From the NCBI GenBank assembly GCA_937922785.1, contig CALAJQ010000026.1:1-64000 (forward strand): DNA of 64,000 nucleotides, given 5' to 3'. The notes beneath the pieces were generated by a model. The model searched no databases. It had not been told where the DNA came from and saw nothing but the letters and a program-made list of their open reading frames with translations. This stretch comes from an uncultured Acidimicrobiales bacterium (lineage in GTDB: Bacteria; Actinomycetota; Acidimicrobiia; Acidimicrobiales; SZUA-35). Positions 1-25,510 of this stretch are shown one piece after another (position 1 is the first letter of the stretch; each line of letters opens with the position of its first letter). The position numbers were made by a program, and so were the translations under genes.

Positions 1-419
<419 letters not shown>

Positions 420-24270: not shown

Positions 24271-24957
24271 TTACTCCTCGGGTGGTAGTTCAGTTGCGGC
24301 GGCCGGAGCCTCTGCAACAGGTTCAGTTGGTGGTATTTCGTCTGGTGTTTGCTGTTCTTCGGAAACTTCAGGAGCTTCGGCGGCAGCTGCTTCTGCTGCC
24401 AGCGCCAACTTCTCCTCCCGCTTCTTCTTCTTGATTTTCTTTGAGTCAGGACCCAAAAGCATTGTCATGTTACGGCCGTCAAGGCGGGGGTAGGTCTCTA
24501 CCCGAGCAATGTCGTCTGTAGCTGCTGCGATGTCATCAAGTATCTTGCGACCCAATTGAGGGTGAGTTACCTCACGGCCCCTAAACATGATGGTGATTTT
24601 GACTTTGTGGCCATCTTCTACGAAGCCATAGACCTTGCGAGTCTTAGTGTCGAAATCTCCACCCGAGATCTTGGGTCGATACTTCATTTCTTTAACTACG
24701 ACCTGGTTTGCCTTCTTACGAGATTCTTTCGCACGTTGGGCAGCCTCATACTTGTACTTGCCGTAGTCCATAATCTTGCAAACCGGAGGGTTGGCCTGTT
24801 CAGCCACCTCCACAAGGTCTAGGTCTAAGGCTCGGGCTAGGTTCAGCGCTTCGGGAAGCGTTTTGATTCCTAGCTGTTCGCCAGTATTTGATATGAGTCT
24901 GACTTCACGAGCTCGGATGCGATCGTTGATCCGAGGTTCGGCGGGGTTAGCAGCTAT
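24271..24957 (-). CDS. infC: Translation initiation factor IF-3, non-standard start codon
   Basis: About 228 residues. The IF-3 N-domain begins with RINDRIRAREVRLIS (codons from about 24930 leftward), runs through LDLVEVAEQANPPVCKIMDYGKYKYE, then the C-domain and a ~45-residue Ala/Glu/Pro-rich tail. A GTG at 24813 would delete most of the N-domain. The frame has an in-frame TGA at 24964-24966, and between it and the N-domain the best non-standard start is ATA at 24955-24957 (start ATAGCTGCTAACCCC); no ATG, GTG, TTG or CTG occurs. ATA overlaps the TAG stop of a 6-codon leader ORF. Start inferred; an indel in the sequence is the alternative. Confidence 0.85.
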   Translation of the reverse strand: MAANPAEPRINDRIRAREVRLISNTGEQLGIKTLPEALNLARALDLDLVEVAEQANPPVCKIMDYGKYKYEAAQRAKESRKKANQVVVKEMKYRPKISGGDFDTKTRKVYGFVEDGHKVKITIMFRGREVTHPQLGRKILDDIAAATDDIARVETYPRLDGRNMTMLLGPDSKKIKKKKREEKLALAAEAAAAEAPEVSEEQQTPDEIPPTEPVAEAPAAATELPPEE

Positions 24958-24974
24958 GGCCGGTCACTATTCAT
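24954..24974 (-). CDS. Six-codon leader ORF before infC
   Basis: ATG at 24972-24974 encodes MNSDRP and stops at TAG 24954-24956. A perfect AGGAGG (24986-24991) lies 11 bases upstream, the only strong ribosome site in this leader. The TAG overlaps the inferred infC ATA start as ATAG. It may be a coupling device or, if one base is missing or extra here, the true N-terminus of IF-3. Confidence 0.5.
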   Translation of the reverse strand: MNSDRP

Positions 24975-25021
24975 GCAGGCGCAATCCTCCTGGGCGCGGG
25001 ATACTTGAGTACAAGCTTGAA

Positions 25022-25030
25022 ATGATAGCA
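25022..25030 (-). promoter_or_regulatory. infC operon extended -10 promoter
   Basis: Minus strand TGCTATCAT is an extended -10 (TGn plus TATCAT). No -35 is evident. It would give a leader of about 40 bases to the leader-ORF ATG. Confidence 0.45.
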
Positions 25031-25054
25031 GCGAGAAGGGCTTAAAGCTGTCGC

Positions 25055-25060
25055 TAAGCT
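25055..25060 (+). promoter_or_regulatory. -10 of the DUF1844 gene
   Basis: TAAGCT, then 6 bases, then the ATG at 25067. A leaderless transcript is predicted. Confidence 0.4.
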
Positions 25061-25066
25061 AACTGA

Positions 25067-25510
25067 ATGAGTTTGTGGACACCAGACGGTGAAGTACCAG
25101 TAGAGCGAAACCCAGCTGAAAACTCGGCCGAACCTTCCCAGGAAGCTCCCATAGCCGGCAACGGTGGCCCAGATGCTGAGGTTGATGAAGAACAAGCACG
25201 ACAAATGGCCCAGGCAATGGCTGAGAGCCGAAAGCAGATCCTTGAAACCGGCGTTGGCACATTGTTAGCCAATCACGCCATGGGAATGTATGAACTCGCT
25301 GCCATACACCTCACCGCTGATGAGCCCGACTTTGCCGAGACTCGCCTCGCGATCGATGCCCTCAAACTTTTTGTAGAGGGCCTAGCCGGCAAGCTCGGCG
25401 AGGTTGAAGAGACTCTTACCGAAGCACTCCACCAGATTCAGCTTGGTTACGTGCAACGATTCAACGATGCCAAGAACGCCGCCGCTGCAGAAGGTGCGCC
25501 GCCTAGCTAG
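25067..25510 (+). CDS. DUF1844 family protein
   Basis: 147 residues. An acidic disordered N-terminus (1-45) precedes the DUF1844 helical region (ANHAMGMYELAAIHL...ARLAIDALKLFVEGLAGKL in outline), ending EGAPPS. The function of the family is unknown. It is found next to infC in several actinobacteria. The 3' end is part of a 24-bp tandem duplication that copies the stop codon region. Confidence 0.85.
   Translation: MSLWTPDGEVPVERNPAENSAEPSQEAPIAGNGGPDAEVDEEQARQMAQAMAESRKQILETGVGTLLANHAMGMYELAAIHLTADEPDFAETRLAIDALKLFVEGLAGKLGEVEETLTEALHQIQLGYVQRFNDAKNAAAAEGAPPS

Follow-up and report, generated by a model that had tools for sequence, protein, structure and literature searches.

infC, the gene for translation initiation factor IF-3 (IF3), is a textbook example of self-regulation by way of a poor start codon. 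Papers are cited here by PMC number, and what is taken from them reaches as far as the excerpts available to us. The start of infC is AUU in Escherichia coli and Bacillus subtilis and AUC in Streptomyces (PMC1805508; PMC5472188), with IF3 feedback described for the E. coli gene and IF3 described as repressing near-cognate starts (PMC5472188), and in Staphylococcus aureus initiation-site profiling found ribosomes enriched at an infC AUA (PMC13009471). Termination-reinitiation is known at ATGA and TGATG overlaps (PMC6728339; PMC12548453), and short upstream ORFs could deliver ribosomes to the next gene (PMC12548453). In Streptomyces sigR, from the Actinomycetota, a rare GTC start in a stop/start-overlapping pair of genes is repressed by IF3 (PMC5472188).

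The infC locus described here lies in the window, the whole 64,000-nucleotide stretch of DNA that was analysed, from an uncultured bacterium of the order Acidimicrobiales. It shares an AUN start with the near-cognate infC systems, and AUA itself with S. aureus (PMC13009471), but differs from them in that a separate short ORF holds the strong Shine-Dalgarno (SD) sequence and ends on the infC start codon. The four-base overlap, which places the upstream stop on the downstream start, is that of termination-reinitiation pairs, except that it is ATAG with a near-cognate start rather than ATGA and that the upstream ORF has just 5-14 codons. In the sigR pair, as excerpted, the rare start belongs to the upstream gene, whereas here it belongs to the downstream gene and the start of the upstream ORF is canonical. 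Near-cognate infC starts and stop/start coupling are each known; what is new is their combination with a leader ORF. We found no description of a leader ORF before infC in the open-access literature searched, as far as the excerpts go. An earlier note on this DNA had suggested that an AUA start coupled to a leader would be a new layout of the IF3 circuit. The leader ORF does look new, but the AUA start is already known from S. aureus (in the excerpt of PMC13009471) and is found elsewhere in the phylum without a leader, so the novelty sits in the leader ORF.

The infC start in the window

On the minus strand of the window, infC (24271..24957) is followed by rpmI (ribosomal protein L35, 24069..24266) and then rplT (ribosomal protein L20, 23601..23975). 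The rpmI gene was identified by the Pfam model Ribosomal_L35p on 24257-24069 and from the ORF list, its start being probably GTG 24266, and rplT by Pfam Ribosomal_L20. Read from ATA 24957-24955 to the end of the frame at 24271, infC encodes an IF-3 of 228 amino acids. IF3_N matches residues 10-78 (107.5 bits), IF3_C matches with 105.6 bits, and the NCBIfam infC model (TIGR00168) aligns residues 7-173 with its positions 4-170 of 170, so that the model matches begin a few residues after the ATA. No other IF3_N match occurs in the 4.9-Mb genome.

Just 5′ of the ATA the infC frame carries two consecutive stops, TAG (24969-24967) and TGA (24966-24964), which together (24964..24969, minus strand) shut the frame to upstream canonical starts. 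The first ATG, GTG or TTG after these stops is GTG 24813, within the IF3 N-domain, and the ATA is the only plausible start between the stops and the N-domain. The earlier note had proposed an ATA start with the N-domain encoded before every in-frame ATG, GTG or TTG, and these positions confirm it. ATC 24930 was considered as a start and rejected, as it sits in the conserved PRIN motif and no SD was seen before it. The case is also a warning for annotation: a gene finder restricted to ATG, GTG and TTG would begin infC within the N-domain, at GTG 24813, which is where the program-made ORF list of the window begins it.

The ATA overlaps the stop codon of a short leader ORF (24954..24974, minus strand; ATG AAT AGT GAC CGG CCA TAG, encoding MNSDRP) that runs from ATG 24974-24972 to TAG 24956-24954, the TAG and the infC ATA being shared as ATAG (24954..24957, minus strand). 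The SD of the leader ORF, AGGAGG (24986..24991, minus strand), lies 11 nt 5′ of its ATG, a long gap, yet within the 4-13 nt range of the order. The same AGGAGG is 28 nt from the infC ATA and is too far away to serve it. The leader ORF contains AATAGTGAC (24963..24971, minus strand; -14 to -6 relative to the infC start), which comparison with relatives marks as a degenerate second SD; its duplex with the anti-SD has an energy of -4.1 kcal/mol, against -10.3 kcal/mol for the leader SD. That AGGAGG serves MNSDRP, whose TAG overlaps the ATA as ATAG, was also as the earlier note had it, with the minus strand now added. Its description of AGGAGG as the only strong SD holds for the window, but not for most relatives with a leader ORF, which have a second SD inside the leader that has largely been lost here. 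The anti-SD, GGATCACCTCCTTTCT, was taken from the 16S rRNA of a genome of the same order (G038); a search for the 16S tail in the genome G042 gave no match.

Upstream, a divergent gene on the plus strand (25067-25510, 147 amino acids) has a weak DUF1844 match of 23.1 bits, below the Pfam cut-off of 27. Because this gene diverges from 25067, infC probably comes first in its transcript, and the leader ORF does not form the end of some other gene. Scanning for consensus promoters gave none in this region. In the window there are 0 terminator-like sites in 24850-25200, the fold of the leader RNA is nothing unusual (z-score +0.98), and Rfam gave no match in the infC leader at gathering score; a riboswitch was rejected on these three results. 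At the far end of the window, positions 1-419 (minus strand) hold a 16S rRNA fragment cut by the contig end, and a search of the whole own genome with RF00177 (16S) gave no match, so the assembly may lack a full 16S rRNA gene.

Loci compared and tests applied

IF3_N was found in 55 of 61 genomes (60 relatives and the genome of the window), and 54 loci were read from these 55, a partial IF3_N match in G025 being left out. To these were added 80 named loci and loci from 100 genomes each of the class and the phylum; genomes of other orders gave 43 loci from 70, and genomes of other classes 48 loci from 91. The first 30 of each class and phylum search were chosen by score and the rest by hand from tables, so the sample is non-random, and most of the genomes are draft assemblies. 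The infC loci total 249 (L001-L249), of which 229 distinct and anchored ones entered the comparison: 144 of the order (32 of the window's own family, 45 from the rest of the order and 67 named), 41 from other orders of the class and 44 from other classes of the phylum. Excluded were L108, which was too short, L228, L229, L231, L235, L247 and L249 (no anchor) and, by subtraction, 13 duplicates. The named loci were assigned to the order by their titles (Acidimicrobiia, Acidimicrobiales, Acidimicrobiaceae, Microthrixaceae, or only Actinomycetota, Actinomycetes and the like), some of which are plainly wrong, and on the ground that 10 of these loci match family or order genomes exactly in the region of the start. 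L070, L077 and L082, titled Bifidobacterium breve, Actinomyces sp. and Acidobacteria, have infC loci that resemble those of Acidimicrobiia and are probably mislabelled metagenome-assembled genomes. A tblastn search of phages with the IF3 N-domain matched 23 records, with no bearing on the start or the leader.

Only ATA, ATC and ATT were considered as starts, within 5-19 codons upstream of the N-domain anchor, and the candidate with the best SD was chosen; 7 of the 144 order-level starts, for which the automatic pick failed or was ambiguous, were set by hand (L039, L049, L051, L133, L148, L151 and L155). A locus was scored as having a leader ORF if an ATG, GTG or TTG lay 12-45 nt upstream of the infC start in a frame other than that of infC, was preceded by an SD match of 4 or more bases and led to a stop that fell from -6 to +18 relative to the infC start.

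Start codons of infC in relatives

The order-level start can be read as ATA in 117 of 144 loci and as ATC in the other 27, a complete score that is partly by construction, given the restriction to ATA, ATC and ATT, the choice by best SD and the 7 rows set by hand. In Acidimicrobiales, infC appears to have the rare codon ATA as its start. In the class outside the order, ATC predominates (31 of 39, with 6 ATA and 2 ATT), as it does in the phylum outside the class (23 of 31, again with 6 ATA and 2 ATT), and elsewhere in the phylum an ATA start does occur without such a leader. Not included in the 39 and 31 are 2 of 41 class rows and 13 of 44 phylum rows without ATA, ATC or ATT where these were sought.

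An ordinary start in frame with infC, which the earlier note had named as evidence against its reading, is not the rule among relatives. An in-frame ATG, GTG or TTG within 60 nt upstream with no stop between occurs in 20 of 144 loci, but has an SD match in only 3 of them (L047, L138 and L139, at 54-57 nt); L138 and L139 also carry a leader ORF, and L047 has none and a strong direct SD. In 7 of the 144 loci a canonical codon lies downstream of the assigned start but ahead of the N-domain anchor, in most cases immediately before the anchor.

The leader ORF in relatives

Of the 144 order-level loci, 100 have a leader ORF with its own SD and its end at the infC start: 31 of 32 in the window's own family (11 genera), 24 of 45 in the rest of the order and 45 of 67 among the named loci. 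Shuffled leaders passed the same test far less often (mean 17.2, standard deviation 3.5 and maximum 27 over 300 sets), and at the other starts of these loci it was passed by 0 of 16 rpmI and 1 of 40 rplT. Outside the order, 1 of 39 class loci passes (L201, 11 codons, stop at +13) and 3 of 31 phylum loci (L233, 14 codons, and L242, 20 codons, both with the stop at +16, and L243, 15 codons, with the stop at +1). Among the 100, the stop is at +1 of ATA, giving ATAG, in 92 (92 of the 144 loci), at +5 in 4, at -2 (TAATA) in 2 and at +14, with ATC starts, in 2. Most leader ORFs have 6 codons (53), 7 (30) or 8 (12), and those of 5, 10, 11 and 14 codons number 5 together. The leader start codon varies (ATG 44, TTG 36, GTG 20), as does its position, while SD and stop are kept.

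The frame of the leader ORF is strongly biased. Among 115 ATA loci an SD-backed ORF was found in the TAG frame in 89, in the other out-of-phase frame in 5 and in the infC frame in 0, against a mean of 10.4 and a maximum of 22 in 200 shuffles of the ATA loci; the corresponding numbers for 26 non-ATA loci are 2, 3 and 0. This count used 141 rows, with the wrongly set start of L039 among them. Where the leader ORF begins at -17, as it does in 25 family loci, its start triplet is ATG in 24 and TTG in 1, so that NTG is kept in 25 of 25, and the infC start reads ATAGC in all 25. Mean pairwise identity in these loci is 0.97 for the leader start triplet, 0.67 for the leader body and 0.45 for third codon positions of IF3, and the identity of 0.27 in the region -60..-36 equals chance. 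Several leader codons vary freely even inside the family. The shuffles, the frame bias and the retention of an NTG start in otherwise random sequence argue that the leader ORF is under selection; the hexapeptide MNSDRP probably has no function of its own.

The recurrence of the layout also bears on sequencing error. The earlier note had asked whether an indel might join MNSDRP to the IF-3 frame; this is very unlikely, given that other genomes show the same out-of-frame overlap, with ATAG in 92 of the 144 leaders.

The 44 loci that lack a leader ORF are concentrated: 42 belong to a single clade of 49 rows. The ORF is present in 84 of 85 rows of a second clade (with weak support, 64) and in 9 of 10 of a third. 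A quick IF3 tree that included 39 outgroup rows requires 6 changes to account for its distribution over the 144 rows. The leader ORF looks like an old trait of the order that was lost, or never gained, in one clade. It is associated with ATA over ATC (98 loci with and 19 without a leader ORF against 2 and 25; Fisher p 5.5e-14), although this value is not independent evidence, as there are too few independent pairs: a kinship-aware test of ATA and leader ORF had 4 supported pairs and was not significant.

Several loci depart from the common layout. The leader start is TAT instead of ATG in L023, of the window's family, where a strong direct SD is kept, and ATT instead of TTG in L137, elsewhere in the order; both can be regarded as natural knock-outs. 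Variant overlaps occur in two genera of the window's family (L049, L051, L053, L054 and L024, L027), with the stop at +5 (ATAGCTGA) or at +14 with an ATC start.

A second Shine-Dalgarno sequence inside the leader ORF

Many relatives have AGGAGTGAT or a similar sequence within the leader ORF, spaced from the ATA as an SD usually is, and relatives that lack the leader ORF carry a comparable SD at the same place before the infC start. This direct SD is -5 kcal/mol or better in 82 of 100 leader-ORF loci, so de novo initiation could suffice there, and -6.0 or better in 44 of 44 loci without the leader ORF. A weak infC SD (above -5 kcal/mol) is found in 18 of 100 leader-ORF loci against 0 of 44 without (Fisher p 0.0016, uncorrected for kinship); all 18, the window included, have the leader ORF. 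The SD of the leader ORF itself is weak in 1 of 100 loci. The best indication from sequence that ribosomes can be supplied by the leader ORF is that weak infC SDs are confined to leader-ORF loci.

Probable hand-over of ribosomes from the leader ORF to infC

We think it probable that the leader ORF hands terminating ribosomes to the AUA, a codon disfavoured by IF3, by termination-reinitiation, adding a layer to IF3 self-control. A ribosome would load at the strong SD, make the hexapeptide and terminate at UAG, with its P site adjacent to the AUA. This ribosome, or its 30S subunit, would then re-initiate there, helped in most relatives with this layout by an internal SD that may hold it at the AUA. 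In the window the internal SD has decayed, and infC should there depend mainly on the hand-over. The anatomy, the position of the ATA and the conservation of the leader ORF with its SD are shown by the sequences; the coupling of the leader ORF to the infC AUA is likely, and we infer from the layout that the leader is translated and that IF3 feeds back on infC. Excess IF3 lowers re-initiation in E. coli, less so where there is an SD, according to the excerpt of PMC2268962. Since excess IF3 is reported to repress both near-cognate initiation and re-initiation, IF3 synthesis should be doubly sensitive to the IF3 level. The literature, as excerpted, also holds contrary results: an aUAA junction without an SD, a situation near that of the window, failed to re-initiate in E. 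coli (PMC9955659), and a review describes effects of IF3 on coupling in both directions (PMC12548453). Within our own data, the 82 of 100 loci with a direct SD, the loss of the leader start in L023 and L137, the 44 of 144 loci without a leader ORF, the 11-nt gap, the missing promoter-like site, the few independent ATA-leader events and the 7 of 144 loci with a canonical codon before the N-domain anchor all count against the hand-over.

The direct SDs could instead mean that a 30S subunit binds the internal SD and starts at AUA de novo, ribosomes on the leader ORF covering that SD and damping IF3 synthesis. Besides the 82 loci with a usable direct SD, the 44 leaderless loci, all at -6.0 or better, seem to need nothing else. 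We nevertheless consider this unlikely: the internal SD is weak in 18 loci, including the window, where the leader SD is kept (weak in 1 of 100), and a mere competitor need not end exactly on the start codon, yet 92 of 100 do. A leader peptide acting as a sensor, through transcription attenuation or through a stall that exposes infC, would suit a short, conserved, SD-backed ORF before a translation gene, all the more as 36 of 92 end in proline before the stop. It is improbable in view of the free variation of several leader codons within the family and, in the window, of the 0 terminator-like sites in 24850-25200, the fold z of +0.98 and the lack of an Rfam match at gathering score.

The leader ORF might also be the true N-terminus of IF3, joined to it by a programmed -1 frameshift before the TAG, given that it has the only strong SD of the window's leader and that its frame differs from that of infC by one. 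No common slippery site is apparent among the 92 ATAG loci, where the last sense codon is for Pro (36), Gln (22), Arg (14), Ser (11), Leu (4), Thr (4) or Lys (1); leaderless relatives have ATA or ATC at the same place behind a direct SD; and 8 loci have other overlaps (+5, -2, +14), which together leave a frameshift very improbable. It is just as hard to credit that the leader ORF has no function and merely results from purine-rich SD sequence together with the ATAG overlap. Many of the peptides do have an R-S-D core that is the internal SD read as codons, but the shuffle, frame, rpmI/rplT and out-of-order controls, and a near-invariant NTG with its own upstream SD amid otherwise random leader sequence, speak against this.

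A fuller version of the hand-over, which we hold only tentatively and would sooner doubt than assert, is that an ORF of about six codons, old in the order, has the sole job of handing ribosomes to the infC AUA, that IF3 represses its own synthesis both at re-initiation and at near-cognate start selection, and that AUA is kept as the codon that completes the overlap with UAG. In much of the order, ribosome loading (a strong SD and a canonical leader start) and start selection (AUA) look separated. The layout offers a test of whether IF3 acts on re-initiating ribosomes and of whether 30S or 70S particles re-initiate, a choice that is still debated in the available part of a review (PMC12548453).

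Possible other near-cognate starts of infC

In six other actinobacterial infC loci without ATA, ATC or ATT in place, an SD and TGATGCGGG or a similar sequence are followed at the same position by GTC (L168, L174, L175, L180 and L181) or GTA (L177). infC in these six may start at GTC or GTA, like Streptomyces sigR at GTC. The infC start looks like GTA in L245 as well, and like CTG in L236, L152 and L199.
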